Part shown: positions 3,840 to 64,000 of the stretch, piece after piece
Numbering within the stretch: the stretch's first letter is position 1
Layout: every line of letters starts with the position of its first letter
NCBI RefSeq assembly: GCF_023734115.1
Contig: NZ_AP025737.1
Span: forward strand, 1,302,001 to 1,366,000
Direction of reading: 5' to 3'
Source of the DNA: Herbiconiux sp. L3-i23
GTDB taxonomy: Bacteria; Actinomycetota; Actinomycetes; Actinomycetales; Microbacteriaceae
DNA: 64,000 nt
Position numbers and translations under genes: made by a program
Notes under the pieces: model-generated
The model's input: the letters and a program-made list of their open reading frames with translations, nothing else
Databases searched by the model: none
Told to the model about the DNA's origin: nothing

Positions 3840-4244
3840 TCACTCGGACGCGGTGCCGCCGCCGCCGTTCGCGACGGGGATCCGTTCGGCGACGATCACC
3901 TCGATGCCGGTCGGGTCGATCAGTCGCGCGATCCGCTCGCCCCACGGCTGGTCCTCGGCGTCGGCGGTGACGACGGCGCCGAACGAGCGGGCGCGGCGCA
4001 CCACCTCGTGGACCTCGGCGACGTAGAACCAGATGGACACCTGGCTGGGCCCGCGCGGAGGGTCCGGGTGCGAGCCGAGTCCGAGTTCGGCGTCGCCGAT
4101 CTTCAGCGACACGTAGGTGGGGTCGTCGACCGGGAAGCGGTAGACGACCTCGCCGCCGAGGACGTCGCGGTAGAACCCGATGAGCGGCGGCAGCTCCGTC
4201 GCCACCACGATGGGGAATCCGTTCAGTGCCCGCTCTCCGGCCAT
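3840..4244 (-). CDS. VOC-superfamily (glyoxalase/bleomycin resistance-like) protein
   Basis: A 134-residue single-module vicinal-oxygen-chelate protein. It has LIGFYRDVLGGEVVYRF at the first beta-alpha-beta unit and a second half with VSIWFYVAEVHEVVRRARSFGA and WGERIARLIDPTGIEVIV. These are the usual repeats of the fold. The substrate cannot be told from sequence; family members include isomerases, dioxygenases and antibiotic-binding proteins. The start is placed at MAGERAL, with GGAGAAGG upstream, rather than at the longer arginine-rich extension. Confidence 0.75.
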   Translation of the reverse strand: MAGERALNGFPIVVATELPPLIGFYRDVLGGEVVYRFPVDDPTYVSLKIGDAELGLGSHPDPPRGPSQVSIWFYVAEVHEVVRRARSFGAVVTADAEDQPWGERIARLIDPTGIEVIVAERIPVANGGGGTASE

Positions 4245-18545: not shown

Positions 18546-18705
18546 CTCTCGATACGCTCCTTCGTCGCTACTCGACGACCGGAGCGGACTCGGTCGTTGA
18601 GTAGGGCGAAGCCCGTATCGAAACGGGTCGAGTAAGCGAAGCGCATCGAGACCACCGCGCCGGGATCGGTGCGTGTGCTCTCGATGCGCTCCGTCGTCGC
18701 TACCC
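18546..18705. repeat. Interspersed repeat cluster A (four copies)
   Basis: Four copies of a roughly 28-34 bp element with consensus GTCGAGTA(A/G)(G)CGA(A/C)G(A/C)...GC(A/G)TATCGAGAC or its complement: 18546-18580, 18592-18624, 18625-18653 and 18678-18705, in alternating orientation. Neighbouring copies can pair as hairpins. The same element recurs at 59.9-60.3 kb and 63.8-64.0 kb. It lies after the alcohol dehydrogenase stop. Confidence 0.8.
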
Positions 18706-35135: not shown

Positions 35136-37166
35136 ATGGGCGGTTCGGTTCGGCGCGACCAGCGAGGGACCGAACCGGGGACGCGCCGTCGCAGGCTCGT
35201 CCTCGCGGTCGCCGTGACGTTTCTCGCCGGCGCCGCCCTCAGCGGCTGCGCCGCGACGGCCGGTCCCGCGCCCGCGGTCACCGCGCTGTCCGCGGACGAC
35301 GCGACGGTCCAAGCGGTCTGCGACCGCGCCGCCACGCTCACCGACTCGGGCGAACCGGACGCCGCGCTCGACCTCATCGACCGCTACCGCGACGGCGCCC
35401 CGACGCCGGCGCCCACCGTGACGCGACGCACCAGCACGCCGACGCCGTCCCCGACGCCGGTGGTCGACTGCGAGCCCGAGCGGCTCGCCGCGCTCGACGC
35501 CGCGGCGCAGGCCGGCTCGATGCAGGAGGTGCCGTCGCCCGCCCAATCGTTCGCACGCGACTGGGATCGCGTCGCTGTCGGTCTCATCGTTCCGCTGCTC
35601 CCGGCACTGTTGACCGCCGGGGTCGCCTTCCTCGTCTTCGCGATCCTCGGCCGTCTCGCGGCGCTCCTGCCGGGCATGCCGTGGCCGGCGGTGCGGAGCC
35701 GTGTGCGGCGGGTGACGGTCACGTCCGCGGGGCTCGTGCTCGCGGCGGCCGGCGCTGTTCTTCTCGCTGCGACCCTTCCGCTCGGCATCCCGTCGCTCCT
35801 CGCGCTCTGGGCTCTCGTCGGTCTTGCGGGCAGCGTGCTGCTCGGCGCCGCCTTCGCGGGAAGGCTCCGCATCGGCATCGAAGTCCGCGAGGGGGACCGG
35901 AACATCCGAGAGGCGTCCGCTCAGGTCATCGCTCAGCTGCAGTCGATCGGCGCGGCGCCGCCGCGCGGAGTCGAGGCGCCCATCGGCTCCGACGTGACGG
36001 CCCTCGCCGATGCGGTGCTGCAGGCTCCCGCGACGAACCCCGTCGTGCAGCTCGTTCGTCTCGTCGGCTCCGCGCTCTTCACGACGACTCCGTGGCGCGT
36101 CCTCGTCGCCATCGAGGACGACCGCGCCTCCGTCATCGTGACCCGGAACGGCCGCGCGGTCGCCGCCCACGAGGTCGACCCGTCGCGCCTCTTCCCGGTC
36201 GGCATCACCGATCCGGCGAGCGGGGAGTCGAGCCCGCCCGCGATCGCCGCCGCCCGACCCGTGGACGAGCCCGCGCCGCCCGTGCTCCTGCCGTTCGTGC
36301 ACGAGTGCGCGGCCGCCGTCGTGATCACCGCGCTCGCGACCGAATACGACGGATTCGAGGCGCTCGGCTCGACCTCATGGGAGAGCGTCGCACTCCAGTA
36401 CGTCGCGACCACCGCGTTCGATGCCGACCCTGAGACGAAGCGTCGGCTGCTCGCCGCGTCGCTCGAAGCGGATCCGGACAACCTCGTCGCCGAGAGCGCA
36501 CTCCACCATGCGATGTTCCGGCACGCGGACCGGCCCGAGGAGATCGTGCCCTACCTGGAGCTGCTCGAGCGCCGGATCGAGTCGCTGCTCGTGGCTCCGT
36601 CGAGCGTTCCGGCGTCGACGAGCCCCGTGGTCGTGACACCGGACCCCGAGGTCGGCCACATCGAGGGCGAGATGCCGGCGCCCGGTTCTCTCGACCTCGT
36701 CCGGCGTCTGCTCATCGGGTACCTCGCCGCCTCCCTCAACCTGCAGGAGTTCGGCATCGGCGACGCCCGCCGTGAGCGCAACGCGCGCCGTCTCGTCGAC
36801 CTGCTCGCCAACGGCACCCCCGCATCCGGCGGTCTCCGCGACCGCATGCGGCTGTCCGCCGGGCTCATGTACGTCGAGGTCGTCCCGGGGGAGAAGGGCA
36901 CGTCGTCACCGGTGGACCTCTGGTCGCAGCGCGCCCTCCGGTCCTCGTCGCCGAGGGTCGCCTTCAACGGCGCCTGCTACTTCTCGACGCAGTGGCGCGA
37001 CTCCCTGCCGCCATCGCAGAAGGTGGTGATCGAGGCGCACGTCGCCGAGCGGCTGCGGTACGCCCTGGTCGTGCCCGAACTGCGGGCGGCGGCGCGGGTC
37101 GACCCGGTGCTGGCGCACCACCGTGGCCACCCCTGGTTCGAAGACCTCCTCGACTCGTACGAGTGA
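35136..37166 (+). CDS. Large membrane-anchored lipoprotein-like protein, function unknown
   Basis: A 676-residue protein. It has an N-terminal twin-Arg-rich signal and lipobox LSGC (Cys near 38), a Thr/Pro-rich linker TPTPSPTP, then three to four membrane helices (about 145-240). A long cytosol- or exterior-facing C-terminal half follows, with helical-repeat character (ETKRRLLAASLEADPDNLVAESALHHAMF resembles a TPR). The combination of a lipidated Cys with later membrane helices is unusual, so the first hydrophobic segment may simply be another helix. GGAGG is 5 bases before the ATG. It is coupled to the downstream PAP2-DAGK gene. Confidence 0.6.
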   Translation: MGGSVRRDQRGTEPGTRRRRLVLAVAVTFLAGAALSGCAATAGPAPAVTALSADDATVQAVCDRAATLTDSGEPDAALDLIDRYRDGAPTPAPTVTRRTSTPTPSPTPVVDCEPERLAALDAAAQAGSMQEVPSPAQSFARDWDRVAVGLIVPLLPALLTAGVAFLVFAILGRLAALLPGMPWPAVRSRVRRVTVTSAGLVLAAAGAVLLAATLPLGIPSLLALWALVGLAGSVLLGAAFAGRLRIGIEVREGDRNIREASAQVIAQLQSIGAAPPRGVEAPIGSDVTALADAVLQAPATNPVVQLVRLVGSALFTTTPWRVLVAIEDDRASVIVTRNGRAVAAHEVDPSRLFPVGITDPASGESSPPAIAAARPVDEPAPPVLLPFVHECAAAVVITALATEYDGFEALGSTSWESVALQYVATTAFDADPETKRRLLAASLEADPDNLVAESALHHAMFRHADRPEEIVPYLELLERRIESLLVAPSSVPASTSPVVVTPDPEVGHIEGEMPAPGSLDLVRRLLIGYLAASLNLQEFGIGDARRERNARRLVDLLANGTPASGGLRDRMRLSAGLMYVEVVPGEKGTSSPVDLWSQRALRSSSPRVAFNGACYFSTQWRDSLPPSQKVVIEAHVAERLRYALVVPELRAAARVDPVLAHHRGHPWFEDLLDSYE

Positions 37167-49942: not shown

Positions 49943-50529
49943 CCCGCTGCCGTCACGGTCTCGGTCGGCAGGGAGTCGAGGACACGGCGTACGCGTCGCT
50001 CGTGCCGGCGTTGCAGCGGGATGAAGACCACCTCGGAAGCCACGACGAAGACGAACAACCCCCACGCGAAGGGGGCGAGAGGACCGGCCTGCATTGCGAG
50101 GCCGACCGCGATGAGCGCGATGGTGGCGAATCCGAGCCTCGAACTTGCCTGTTGAAGGCGGATGTTCAAGAGGAAGGATCGGGCGTACCGGCGCGCGATC
50201 TGCGTGTCCGGAGGTGACGGCAGAGGCCCCGTATGGCGGAGGGCGTGGCGCAACCATGCGGCGAGGTCGATGTCGGTTGCTTCACGTGCGATTCGAGCGG
50301 ACAGTGCGGTGAGACGGCAATCGCGGATGAGGATCGGAATCTCGGCGGTGAGAAGAACGAATGCGAGAGCGATCACGCCGAACGCGAGAGAGCTGGCAGC
50401 GTCGAGCCGGAGCAGCCAGGCGGCGAGGGTCACGACGGCGGCGACGACAACGAAAGCGCCCGCGGCTGCGAGAAGGACATCACGTCGGAGGTGTCGGGTG
50501 ATGCTGGCAGGGTCGAGCACGTCGGACAT
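49939..50529 (-). CDS. Four-helix membrane protein of unknown function
   Basis: A 196-residue protein with two pairs of membrane helices (about 18-42 and 46-68; about 135-150 and 152-172), split by a soluble charged loop with RLTALSARIAREATDIDLAAWLRHAL. GGAGACCCC precedes the ATG. No family is recognised. It is convergent with kynureninase, and the two stops share the four bases CTAG. Confidence 0.65.
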   Translation of the reverse strand: MSDVLDPASITRHLRRDVLLAAAGAFVVVAAVVTLAAWLLRLDAASSLAFGVIALAFVLLTAEIPILIRDCRLTALSARIAREATDIDLAAWLRHALRHTGPLPSPPDTQIARRYARSFLLNIRLQQASSRLGFATIALIAVGLAMQAGPLAPFAWGLFVFVVASEVVFIPLQRRHERRVRRVLDSLPTETVTAAG

Positions 50530-50601
50530 GGGGTCTCCGCGAGGGTTGGGGTCCTCGAACGCTAGCGAGTGGGAGCGGAAGCGCCAAGCGACGCCGGTTC
50601 C

Positions 50602-51973
50602 TCAGTGCTGCGGGATCTTCACTCTTCCGCCGCGGCGGGGTCTTCGAGTGGAGTCGATGTGGGATGGCGGTGTGAACCACGGCACCCCGTCGATCATCTG
50701 CAACGTCCACCCGTCTTCGTCGTATCGGCGATGGTGGAAGTGGCAGAGGAGAACGCCGTTCTCGATGTCGGTGCATTGGGATGCCGACCACGGGTCGATG
50801 TGAGCTCCGTCGCACCACCGCGGGGGAGCGGTGCATCCCGGCCAGACGCAGCCGCCGTCGCGGGCGGCCATCGCTCTGCGCTGGGCGGCGGTGAAGTAGC
50901 GCTTCGTCGCTCCCAGTCGGAGCGGCTGCTCTCGTCCGTCGAGCAGTACCGTGACGATCTCGGCGCACTGCAGGACCCGCTTCACCGTGGCCGCCGACAC
51001 TGCGGCGGCGACGCCTTCGAACCAGGCGGCTCCCTGACCGGTGGCAGCCATTTCGGATGAGATGTGGAGGACCGCTGTCGCGGGCGAGGTCGACGAAGGC
51101 ATCGGCGCGCTTCTGCTTCCAGCTGCGGTCGTCCCATTCCGTCGGGTCTGGAAGGAGTTCGCTTTCGGCCGTGTCCGCGTCGTCGATATCACCACCGTCG
51201 ACCTCGCAGAATCTGACCTGACGTCGAGGAGCGGTGCGGGCATCGAGGGCCGCGTCGACGTAGGCGGAGCCCTCGGCGTCGACGCGGAGCAGGTACTCGA
51301 AGAGGTTGTCGTCGACCTGGCGCTTGGTGAGCTCGACGCGGGCTCGCGCCGCCTTCTCGCGCGGCTCCACCCCGTCCGGATCGAACTGATCGGGCAGCAT
51401 CCGGCAGACGTCTCGAAGCTGAGTGGCAGTCCAGTCGGACACTGCGCCGTCGACGAGGAAGCCTTCGGCCCACTCGAATCCTTCGACGGTGGCGTGCGGC
51501 CCGATCTTCGCGAGTGCCCGGACGATTTCGCGACCGGCACGGGCACTGAGCAGCCCATCGCTGAGTGCGCCGGCGAGGTGAGGAAGGAACGACGGGAGGA
51601 TCTCGCCGGTGATGCCTTCGCGTGGGGTGACCGCCAAGCCGAGCGCGCAGTGCATCGCGATGTCAGCCTCTGACTGCTTGGTGCGCTTCGCCAGCAGCTC
51701 GACCGCGTTCTTCTCGCCCGACCGGCGCGCGAGCGGCTCGGGCACCGTCGGCTCGCTGCGCCGCGCGACCTCGCCCGCCGCGGCGACGACGACGGCCTCG
51801 GCGAGCCGAAGGACCTCGACCGCGTGCTGGTGCATGGCGAGCAGATCGGCGTCGGTCGCCGCCATCAGTGACTCGACGACCGTCGACGACTCCGGCCGAG
51901 CGGCCAGCACGTCGGCGCGCGTCGCCAACGCGACGGCCTCTTCGGCCAACCGTGTCGTCGTGCGCCCCGCCAT
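50602..51973 (-). pseudogene. DUF222-HNH endonuclease gene, frameshifted
   Basis: Two reading frames carry one protein. The upstream frame from 51973 encodes the DUF222 helical domain (RLAEEAVALATRADVLAARPES to KQKRADAFVDLARDS). The downstream frame to 50602 continues with SSEMAATGQGAAWFEGVAAAVSAATVKRVL and the HNH nuclease CVWPGCTAPPRWCDGAHIDPWS, ENGVLLCHFHHRRYDEDGW. The switch, near 51065-51085, needs one base skipped. Both parts are well preserved, so this is a recent inactivation or a sequencing error. DUF222-HNH genes are repetitive and often decay in actinobacteria. It borders the 130-bp repeat array. Confidence 0.8.
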
Positions 51974-52020
51974 GACTGCACTCTTCCACCACCCTCCGAC
52001 ATCGCCTTCTGGCGGCTTCG

Positions 52021-52752
52021 CGCTTCGCGACGGCCGTGGACGGCCTCCTCAGCGACCAGGGTGTTCTGGTCATTGAGGAGGGCCGCCAGGCCCGTCGCGA
52101 AATGACATGAGTCGATGGTGCGCCGAGTTCGGCGCCCTGTTGCGGACCCGCGCTTCGCGACGGCCGTGGACGGCCTCCTCAGCGACCAGGTTGTTCCGGT
52201 CATTGAGGAGGGCCGCCAGGCCCGTCGCGAAATGACATGAGTCGTTGGTGCGCCGAGTTCGGCGCCCTGTTGCGGTCCCGCGCTTCGCGACGGCCGTGGA
52301 CGGCCTCCTCAGCGAGCAGGGTGTTCTGGTCATTGAGGAGGGCCGCCAGGCCCGTCGCGAAATGACATGAGTCGTTGGTGCGCCGAGTTCGGCGCCCTGT
52401 TGCGGTCCCGCGCTTCGCGACGGCCGTGGACGGCCTCCTCAGCGAGCAGGGTGTTCTGGTCATTGAGGAGGGCCGCCAGGCCCGTCGCGAAATGACATGA
52501 GTCGTTGGTGCGCCGAGTTCGGCGCCCCGTTGCGGTCCCGCGCTTCGCGACGGCCGCGGGCGGCCTCCTCAGCGAGCAGGGTGTTCTGGTCATTGAGGAG
52601 GGCCGCCAGGCCCGTCGCGAAATGACATGAGTCGTTGGTGCGCAGAGTTCGGCGCCCTGTTGCGGTCCCGCGCTTCGCGACGGCCGCGGGCGGCCTCCTC
52701 AGCGACCAGGGTGCGGGACCAGGGTGCGCGGGCGGGGTCCTCAGCGAGCAGG
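52021..52752. repeat. Tandem array of a 130-bp hairpin-forming repeat
   Basis: Five full 130-bp units begin at 52021, 52151, 52281, 52411 and 52541. A sixth is cut after about 42 bp (52671-52712), and a rearranged fragment runs to 52752. In each unit, outer arms TTCGCGACGG and CCGTCGCGAA close a hairpin of 78 nt (52154-52231 in unit 2) with inner stems GGCCTCCTCA and GAGGAGGGCC. A second palindrome, GCGCCGAGTTCGGCGC, follows. Units differ by only a few bases. No protein gene is credible inside. The 700-bp gap between the HNH pseudogene and the cation transporter is entirely this array. Confidence 0.92.
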
Positions 52753-52767
52753 TGACAGGATCTTCCC

Positions 52768-53718
52768 GTGGATGACGCAGCAACCGAGAAGCAGGGGAGC
52801 GGATCGACTCTCACGGTCGTCATCGCTCTCGCCGCCAATGCGCTCATCGCTATCGCGAAGACGTTCGCCGCCGTAATCACCGGGGCGGCCTCGATGTTCG
52901 CTGAGGCGGCGCACTCGTGGGCCGATGCCGGCAATGAGATCTTCCTGCTGATGGCCGACCGCCGCTCGCGCCGGCCCGCCGACGAACGGCACCCGCTCGG
53001 CCACGGTCGCGACGCGTACGTATGGAGCCTGTTCGCCGCGTTCGGACTCTTCGCCGTCGGAGCCGCAGTGTCGGTGTTCCACGGCGTCCAGGAGCTCTTC
53101 GAATCCGAGGAGGCCGGCAACTACCTCGTCTCGTACATCGTGCTGGCCCTCGCGTTCATCCTCGAGGGCATCTCGTTCCGGCGCGCAGTCGTGCAGGCCC
53201 GCGGAACGGCACGCGAGAACGAACGCGACCTGTTCGACGAGATCCTGTCGACCTCCGACCCCACGGTGCGTGCGGTGTTCTTCGAGGACGCGGCCGCGCT
53301 CATCGGCGTGCTCATCGCGTTCACCGGCATCCTGCTGCACCAGATCACCGGGTCGCCGATCCCCGACGCGATCGGATCGATCCTCGTCGGCCTGCTCCTG
53401 GGCGCGGTCGCGGTGGTACTGATCCAGCGCAATCGTCGCTTCATCGTCGGCGAGGTGGTCGACGAGCGGGTGCGGCGAGCGGCGCTCGGACGGCTCGGCG
53501 AGCACCCCGAGATCGCGTCGGTGTCGTACCTGCACATCGAGTACGTCGGCCCGGCGAGAGTGTTCCTGGTCGCCGCGGTCGACCTGGTCGGAGACGAGAC
53601 CGAGCACACCGTGGCCGCGCGCCTCAACGCCATCGAGGAAGAGTTGCAAACGAGCGAGCGCGTCGTGCGCGCGGTGCTGACGCTCTCGGCACCCGGAGCG
53701 GCGGCGCTCGTCGCCTGA
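52768..53718 (+). CDS. Cation diffusion facilitator (CDF) family transporter
   Basis: A 316-residue metal-ion exporter with six predicted membrane helices. FAEAAHSWADAGNEIFLL carries the TM2 metal site (His-Ser-x-x-Asp-x-x-x-Asn). HPLGHGRDAYVWSLFAAFGLFAVGA carries the HPxGHGR-x-x-Y signature. AVFFEDAAALIGVLIAFTGI is the TM5 site, and a cytosolic C-terminal domain follows (ASVSYLHIEYVGPARVFLVAAVDL). It probably exports zinc or a similar divalent ion. The GTG has AGGA upstream and lies directly after the repeat array. Confidence 0.9.
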   Translation: MDDAATEKQGSGSTLTVVIALAANALIAIAKTFAAVITGAASMFAEAAHSWADAGNEIFLLMADRRSRRPADERHPLGHGRDAYVWSLFAAFGLFAVGAAVSVFHGVQELFESEEAGNYLVSYIVLALAFILEGISFRRAVVQARGTARENERDLFDEILSTSDPTVRAVFFEDAAALIGVLIAFTGILLHQITGSPIPDAIGSILVGLLLGAVAVVLIQRNRRFIVGEVVDERVRRAALGRLGEHPEIASVSYLHIEYVGPARVFLVAAVDLVGDETEHTVAARLNAIEEELQTSERVVRAVLTLSAPGAAALVA

Positions 53719-59401: not shown

Positions 59402-59941
59402 GTGGTGACGGAGTACCACTGGACCGGTACCGATCCGGCGTCGACCGAACGGCTGAGACTCACGAACGGCGGGTCGCTTCTCGCGCGCTCGGAAGTGGAT
59501 CGGTCGGGCACCCGGTACCGCTACGAGGTGCGGCTCGACTCCGACTGGACGTTTCGATCGTTGCGGATCGCGATGATCGGCGGTTGCGCGGTGACGCTCG
59601 AACACTCGGCGGAGTGCGGGTGGGTGGTGGACGGGACGGTCCGCGATGATCTCGACGGTGCGGTCGACATCGACCTGGTGGTGAGCCCATTCACGAACAC
59701 GCTGCCGTTGCGGCGGCTCGGGCTCGAGGTGGGGGCGTCGGCGGAGGTGGTGGTCGCGTGGGTCGACGACGACCTGAACGTCCTGCCCGACCCGCAGCGG
59801 TACACGCGTCTCGGCGCCGACCGGGTGCTGTTCGAGTCGCTGGACTCCGGGTTCTCGCGCGAACTGCTGGTCGATCCGGATGCGTTCGTCGTCGACTACC
59901 CGGGCCTCTTCCACCGCACCGGCTACCGCCCCGTCCGTTGA
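59402..59941 (+). CDS. Putative glycolipid-binding domain protein (DUF1089 type)
   Basis: A 179-residue all-beta-rich soluble protein: RLTNGGSLLARSEVDRSGTRYRYEVRLDSDWTFRSLRI, then GWVVDGTVRDDLDGAVDIDLVVSPFTNTLPLRRL, and a C-terminal FSRELLVDPDAFVVDYPGLFHR. The pattern W-x-(V/I)-DG...(D/E)-x-D-(I/L)-x-x-(S/T)-P-x-x-N-(T/S)-x-P-(I/L)-R-R is that of the putative glycolipid-binding family. No signal peptide is present. GGGAGG is 8 bases before the GTG. It is divergent from the PTS operon and has no defined role. Confidence 0.82.
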   Translation: MVTEYHWTGTDPASTERLRLTNGGSLLARSEVDRSGTRYRYEVRLDSDWTFRSLRIAMIGGCAVTLEHSAECGWVVDGTVRDDLDGAVDIDLVVSPFTNTLPLRRLGLEVGASAEVVVAWVDDDLNVLPDPQRYTRLGADRVLFESLDSGFSRELLVDPDAFVVDYPGLFHRTGYRPVR

Positions 59942-60253
59942 GCGAAGCGATACGAAGGGGTGCGGCGGCTGCGCTCTCGATACGCTCGTTCCTCGCGGGG
60001 GACTCGGTGCGCTTCGCTTACTCGACGACCGAAATCCCGGTCGTCGAGGAGCGACGAAGGAGCGTATCGAGTCCCTGGCGCAAGCGTGCGCCATGGGCCC
60101 AGGGTCGAGTAAGCGAAGCGCATCGAGACCATGGGCGCAGGTGGGACTGTCGCCTCCGTATCGCTTCGCTCAACGAGCGGGCTGTTTCCGGTCGTCGAGT
60201 AGCGACGAAGGAGCGTATCGAGACGGGTCGAGTAAGCGAAGCGCATCGAGACC
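59937..60253. repeat. Interspersed repeat cluster B
   Basis: Seven to eight copies of the element seen at 18.6 kb, in both orientations: for example 60049-60082, 60103-60131 and the back-to-back pair 60190-60253 (GTCGAGTAGCGACGAAGGAG... then GTCGAGTAAGCGAAGCGC...). They fill the 340-bp gap between the glycolipid-binding and DUF3054 genes. Nothing else is visible there. Confidence 0.82.
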
Positions 60254-63787: not shown

Positions 63788-64000
63788 TCGCCGAGTAAGC
63801 GGAGCGCATCGAGACCGCAGTGCCGAACTCCGGGGCTGCGCTCTCGGTGCGCTCGTTCCTCGCTTACTCGAGCCGTCTCGATACGGGCTTCGCCCTACTC
63901 GACGACCGGTGTGGGAGTCGTGTCCTTCGTATCGCTGCGCTCAACCGGCGGGATGAACCCGGTCGTCGAGTAGCGACGGAGGAGCGTATCGAGACGGGTC
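63788..64000. repeat. Interspersed repeat cluster C (runs to window edge)
   Basis: At least five copies of the same element as clusters A and B: 63788-63817, 63839-63908 (two, opposed), 63928-63951 and 63960-64000, the last cut by the window end. No gene is seen between 63691 and 64000. Confidence 0.8.

Follow-up and report, generated by a model that had tools for sequence, protein, structure and literature searches.

The window, a stretch of 64,000 nucleotides from the genome of Herbiconiux sp. L3-i23 (contig NZ_AP025737.1), contains a tandem array at 52019-52713 for which TRF reports a period of 130, 5.3 copies, 97% matches, and 0% indels (Table 1); a 13-bp repeat at 52704-52728 was also called by TRF. 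Any two of the five full units are separated by 1-6 differences over 130 positions (95-99% identity), and the partial sixth unit has one difference from unit 5 over its 43 positions, in agreement with the original prediction of five near-identical 130-bp units and a truncated sixth. The long complementary arms that it described in each unit are present, as is a separate palindrome, GCGCCGAGTTCGGCGC, which is exact in four of the five full units. Each repeat unit is composed of two inverted copies of a REP monomer of ~40 bp, which we name R1, and the 695-bp array comprises five inverted R1 pairs plus one REP. The array occupies most of the divergent gap between the starts of two genes, one of the DUF222 family on the minus strand and one of the cation-efflux (CDF) family on the plus strand. 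The DUF222 profile of the former gene is split over two reading frames that overlap at about 51080-51120, from which we conclude that the gene is frameshifted in the assembly, being either a pseudogene or the product of a sequencing error.

Table 1. Features of the R1 array and of the genes on either side of it (positions are those of the window).
Feature	Position	Strand	Description
DUF222 gene adjoining the array	50480-51973	-	PF02720; start at 51973
Five tandem 130-bp units	52021-52150, 52151-52280, 52281-52410, 52411-52540, 52541-52670		From TRF, own-genome BLAST, and unit comparison
Forward R1 monomer, unit 1	52019-52057	+	Recurs each 130 bp; outer stem GCGCT/AGCGA(C)
Box TCGCGACG of this monomer	52025-52032	+	
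Inner stem region of this monomer	52033-52044	+	
Box CTCCTC of this monomer	52045-52050	+	
Reverse R1 monomer, unit 1	52068-52106	-	Recurs each 130 bp in the five full units; outer stem GTCATT/AATGAC, inner stem GGCC/GGCC
Reverse-to-forward linker, unit 1	52101-52154		54 bp, outer-stem arms included
Palindrome GCGCCGAGTTCGGCGC in the linker	52120-52135		Unit 1; 4 exact copies in the window
Truncated sixth unit	52671-52713		One forward R1 monomer, 43 bp; compared with unit 5
Degenerate remnant	52714-52752		Partial R1-like end, identified by eye
Cation-efflux (CDF) family gene	52768-53718	+	PF01545; start 54 bp past the array

The near identity of the units could reflect an assembly artefact, a CRISPR, or a satellite of plasmid or phage origin. 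However, the array is internal to a 3.14-Mb contig of a 3.18-Mb genome and its individual units carry distinct changes, so that we regard this explanation as highly improbable. A CRISPR, which the original prediction had also dismissed, was rejected because the units abut, are alike throughout, and have no spacers, and a plasmid- or phage-borne repeat was rejected because neither collection yielded a match at E 1e-5. The window gave neither an Rfam match at gathering score nor a tRNA; a stand-alone RNA of a known family was rejected on the former ground, and a tRNA or tmRNA was likewise rejected for the array.

The R1 monomer consists, in order, of a variable outer stem arm, the box TCGCGACG, a variable inner stem, the box CTCCTC, and the second arm of the outer stem; the two boxes appear invariant, although most of their bases were set by the search pattern and their constancy is no independent measure of conservation. 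The outer stem switches between complementary versions (GTCATT/AATGAC, GTCGC/GCGAC, and CTCGC/GCGAG), and so does the inner stem (GGCC/GGCC, GCCGT/ACGGC, and GCCC/GGGC, with GTCGC/GCGAC when the inner part has 13 bases). A loop change from TGGA to CGGG that was noticed earlier in the late units is real, occurring in unit 5 and in the partial unit, but it is a paired replacement of T-A by C-G that flanks a loop of GG. Fold prediction places one unit well beyond its dinucleotide shuffles both as RNA (z of -6.3 and -8.0 on the two strands, beating 200 of 200 shuffles) and as DNA (z of -6.3 and -6.6, again beating 200 of 200), and the whole array as RNA reaches a z of -12.3 (20 shuffles). Single R1 monomers have no exceptional fold (four tested, z of -0.9 to -1.7, with 8-37 of 200 shuffles folding at least equally well), which indicates that the inverted pair is the source of the signal. 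The strong fold of the 78-nt hairpin in the original prediction is borne out, but its two halves are REP monomers in opposing orientation, and copies of that monomer occur at other sites as well.

A BLAST search of the unit against its own genome returned 209 matching pieces; among the matches listed, R1 groups into about 40 places, and the pieces mostly span one or both hairpin halves (unit positions about 1-43 and 46-94). With 51 copies of the strict pattern, R1 is a short palindromic repeat present in many copies, as the general definition of a REP has it. Placement was assessed in 42 sequences of the genome, namely the window and 41 stretches of which most were picked for R1, and in these 143 of 147 R1 monomers lie between genes called by our own simple gene caller and 4 lie inside them. 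The 37 gaps that hold R1 are unidirectional (17), convergent (16), or divergent (4), the class of the window gap having been corrected by hand since the gene caller overlooked the frameshifted DUF222 gene, whereas the 109 remaining gaps, each 100 bp or longer, are unidirectional in 55 cases, convergent in 16, and divergent in 38. R1 therefore resembles other REPs in being extragenic and mostly not between divergent genes (4/37 vs. 38/109 gaps). The alternating orientation typical of BIMEs is found in 72 of 93 neighboring monomer pairs outside the window (at most 250 bp apart) and in all 10 neighboring pairs inside it. Reverse-to-forward linkers outside the window are 52-57 bp long in 34 of 42 cases; forward-to-reverse linkers are 26-75 bp long, and another repeat lies within several of them. 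When linkers are compared from locus to locus, both kinds contain pairs more similar than the 99th percentile of shuffles (76 of 210 and 25 of 66), and for this reason a mobile inverted pair is not singled out by either kind.

Covariation in the stems was evaluated against 500 shuffles. The set comprises 82 distinct monomers whose inner part has 12 bases (73 of them from our genome and 9 from other genomes); the 29 of 111 monomers with other inner lengths do not enter it. The outer stem is paired in 84.8% of cells (shuffle mean 72.3, maximum 75.6) and has 79 compensatory cells against a shuffle maximum of 44; the inner stem is paired in 85.6% (mean 68.1, maximum 72.0) and has 69 compensatory cells against a maximum of 36. 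Pairings shifted out of register reach 24-57%, the shift being in a single direction for the outer stem. The original prediction took the kept stem as a hint of selection on structure, and the compensatory cells of both stems speak for it, but the numbers of further pair types fall within the shuffle range (13 vs. a maximum of 15, and 6 vs. a maximum of 8). We are cautious in reading this covariation as support for a preserved structure and no proof of one, given that related sequences can beat such shuffles when unconstrained. Among the standard-pair cells of the stems, 14 of 768 are G-T, which leans weakly toward a DNA palindrome over an RNA; the existence of discrete stem subfamilies makes the argument a weak one. 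Because the paired changes are nearly all Watson-Crick, we suspect that the thing copied would be the DNA palindrome and not an RNA product.

The same data bear on an alternative in which the array acts as RNA, its hairpins terminating or stabilizing the transcripts of neighboring genes or forming a small RNA. Very stable folds are predicted on both strands, the stems covary, and 33 of the 37 R1 gaps lie downstream of at least one gene, as is described for other REPs in the excerpted text of PMC3733652. However, G-T pairs are scarce, the array sits between two gene starts, and Rfam is without a match in the window; we consider an RNA function unlikely, and the structured RNA array of the original prediction gains no specific support from copies that are dispersed and mostly in extragenic DNA. 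R1 is a dispersed, mostly extragenic, and probably structurally constrained family. Given that it is dispersed, mostly intergenic, and alternating in orientation, with an excess of compensatory change in its stems, we posit with a probability of roughly 0.8 that the locus is a REPIN/BIME-type cluster, that is, inverted R1 pairs amplified in tandem at one intergenic site. The position of the array in a divergent gap, a class in which R1 is otherwise rare, counts against this reading, as do the lack of a detected RAYT-type gene, the further pair types that stay within the shuffle range, and the ordinary folds of single monomers. Membership in a genome-wide REP family is what the original prediction missed, and its interpretation as a whole is only partly upheld.

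We propose that R1 pairs spread as small non-autonomous mobile units and that one local pair may then have been amplified via slippage or unequal recombination between identical units; the near-identical tandem units fit the recombination-prone element that had been suggested for the locus. Any effects on the two neighboring genes, such as insulation, termination, or cruciform formation, would be secondary and are putative. Conversely, the array might be kept as a set of binding sites for gyrase, a nucleoid-associated protein, or a regulator, serving DNA topology or the two divergent genes. E. coli BIMEs bind gyrase and IHF, and the analogy, together with a divergent intergenic gap filled by the array, could be taken in favor of such a role. 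However, the linker palindrome GCGCCGAGTTCGGCGC is absent from the other 41 fetched stretches, and the copy number of R1 is lineage-specific; protein binding thus strikes us as rather improbable. The REPIN/BIME-type reading is strengthened by comparison with Pseudomonas. In the sections of Bertels and Rainey (2011; PMC3116915) that describe them, REPINs are inverted REP doublets in extragenic DNA whose REPs are accompanied by RAYT genes, and ordered REPIN clusters consist of tandem near-identical copies that include the flanks, one of them spanning 700 bp with four REPINs and a further REP. The R1 array has the same form, with five pairs and one REP over 695 bp, and differs from the REPINs of these sections in that its host is without a detected Y1 transposase. 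The kind of element is therefore already known, and it is the missing RAYT and the DUF222 neighbors that set the R1 array apart.

Among relatives, R1 copy number is lineage-specific. The unit finds matches at E 0.001 in five of the nine genomes of the genus, ours among them (195, 43, 18, 2, and 1 pieces), and the strict R1 pattern matches our genome alone among 149 genomes of the order. A looser pattern matches 10 of 199 family genomes, with 52 copies in our genome (of which that at 35232 seems to be a chance match), 15 in the congener G156, 48 with other stem sequences in G209, 2 in G275, and one in each of six further genomes, some of them chance-like. The original prediction was to fall if relatives held no copies and the stems no covariation; both are present, and the element stands. 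No R1 was found near the CDF orthologs of five congeners (1.5-kb flanks; L330-L334), and seven named CDF loci have 0 or 1 R1 match each (1 in L097 and 1 in L104), the CDF loci L101 and L108 coming from two of the same genomes. With R1 absent or single at these loci, we rejected the idea that the array belongs to the CDF locus as a conserved element. Eight window proteins were searched in ten CDF loci and the CDF protein alone matched, so that these loci offer no clean empty site; no CDF match was found in G156.

REPs are known bacterial DNA repeats that are usually accompanied by an enzyme, and RAYT transposases play the REP-spreading role in Proteobacteria. The Y1 transposase domain of RAYTs (PF01797) has no match in our genome and a single match among 199 family genomes (G167:C11:24558-24878, locus L300), in a search in which 5 of 14 control genomes match. 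Unlike REPINs, R1 has no cognate RAYT found in its genome, and we rejected a RAYT-driven REP on this basis; the mobilizer of R1 has been lost, has gone undetected, or is not a RAYT. A REP family in a bacterial family with Y1 in 1 of 199 genomes makes other REP spreaders testable.

Another class for comparison is that of the CGTC-tagged REPs, which in the excerpted text of Di Nocera (2013; PMC3733652) form dimers and have no known dedicated transposase, the class being left without a known mobilizer in 2013; those printed there come from five phyla, Actinobacteria not among them. Their features in that text are an unpaired CGTC at one end, A-T pairs at the start of the stem, and a CCA-like tail. 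R1 also occurs as dimers and has, on its other strand, CGTC right by the inner stem; in contrast to the CGTC REPs of that text, it ends in GAGGAG in place of a CCA-like tail and its stem has no A-T first pairs. The P. putida REP of GTAG-1 type, in the portion of Nunvar (2010; PMC2817692) that concerns it, has GGAG before the stem and GTCGCGAA after it, and both motifs are shared with the other strand of R1; R1 differs from the GTAG-1 REPs of that portion in having neither the GTAG head nor a RAYT. When GTAG or its printed variants (such as GYRG) are sought, the other strand of R1 has GGAG by the stem, and a second repeat, R2, has GAGTAG. We found no description of the R1 family in the open-licence literature on REP, BIME, REPIN, and RAYT elements, Actinobacteria, and Microbacteriaceae.

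Apart from the array, the window has REP-like clusters of R2 and a further repeat, R4, at 18547-18637, 59937-60240, and 63876-63995. R2 has the form GGTCGTCGAGTAG ... CGTATCGAGA, with its GAGTAG end adjoining the stem, and R4 has the form CGTATCGCTTCGCTCAAC.

Among the 71 genes flanking R1 gaps, DUF222 (13E12, HNH-like) is the sole family with more than two members, namely six genes; the families derive from an all-against-all BLAST that links five DUF222 genes and one other pair, and the DUF222 gene of the window was added by Pfam. Six DUF222 proteins pass the DUF222 cut-off, and one DUF222 protein compared with solved structures gave no match. The DUF222 profile matches the genome 14 times, twice in the frameshifted gene, which makes 13 DUF222 genes; their paralog groups are dispersed and share 84-92% DNA identity over 1.2-1.7 kb. 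Similarity within these groups (L024/L032/L041; L015/L046/L047/L050; L048/L049) often stops near the stop codon or at R1. The group A genes (L024, L032, and L041) carry R1 together with a third repeat, R3, which has 17 pattern matches in the genome, 15 of them genuine by eye; 12 of these 15 flank the three group A genes. The three R3 copies away from DUF222 are in L018 (about 4082-4118) and L037 (about 3900-3937 and about 4208-4244), and a tblastn search of both loci with a group A protein found no DUF222 remnant. In group B (L015, L046, L047, and L050), R2 arrays are downstream of three of the four genes. Multi-copy DUF222 genes are shared with Mycobacterium, where REP13E12, in the excerpted text of PMC10589994, is the name given to a DUF222-HNH gene repeat; no link of DUF222/13E12 gene repeats to short palindromes was found in the open-licence literature searched.

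These neighborhoods admit a rival account in which DUF222-HNH proteins replace RAYTs as the partners of the repeats, each subgroup acting on its own REP family, the gene and its flanking repeats spreading together, and lone repeats being non-autonomous offspring. Apart from the flanking-gene, R3, and R2 counts, it draws on the occurrence of any of the four repeat families within 300 bp of 9 of 13 DUF222 genes versus 7 of 61 window genes (p 5e-5), a test in which the paralogs are not independent, two of the nine positives rest on the loose R1 pattern, and the R2, R3, and R4 patterns were composed after the DUF222 flanks had been viewed. Repeats are also present at all four plus-strand DUF222 loci examined in G156, which has seven DUF222 genes, and by eye upstream of the plus-strand loci L195 and L312 of G209. 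Against this account, four of our 13 DUF222 genes are without repeats, none are seen by eye beside L309 (G209) and L305 (G151), most R1 clusters are away from DUF222, and, of the six DUF222 proteins that pass the DUF222 cut-off, five have an HNH match that falls short of the Pfam threshold and one has none at E 0.01. In 40 family genomes, with one DUF222 locus each and a stretch 35 kb away as the control, the total of local repeats is 168 bp per 11 kb at DUF222 and 164 bp in the control (p 0.37). An increase is confined to the 500 bp immediately downstream (4.5%, 15 of 40 loci), the other bins having 0.5-3.0% and 4-13 loci. An 8-mer test of the sequence downstream of DUF222 genes was unconvincing, the lowest p for any of the 141 8-mers being 2e-5. 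Given no total excess at the 40 loci, we rejected a DUF222-repeat link as a family-wide rule. The link is strong in our own genome and present at the four loci examined in G156 but not general in the 40 relatives, and we treat it as a lead.

We consequently find it improbable that DUF222 proteins are the partners of R1. The broader proposal, that palindromic repeats of Microbacteriaceae owe their maintenance and spread to DUF222-HNH nucleases acting in place of RAYTs, with subgroups owning R1/R3, R2, and R4 at their gene ends and with arrays such as this one as by-products, is speculative, and we doubt that it is correct; it nevertheless makes DUF222-HNH, an abundant family of unknown function (found in 62 of 100 family genomes), a concrete candidate mobilizer. 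Should the DUF222 link fail, what is left is a REPIN-type cluster of the ordinary sort, and no such repeats are described for its host in the literature searched.

The 300 bp upstream of DUF222 genes have enriched motifs of their own at the 40 loci (L220-L259). AATGTCGG occurs at 12 of 40 loci versus 7 of 1464 control windows, CTCCACAG at 11 of 40 versus 6 of 1464, and TATCCACA, which recalls a DnaA box, at 6 of 40 versus 2 of 1464. The DUF222 gene of the window has a variant, GATGTCGGAGG, at about 51990-52003 on the minus strand.
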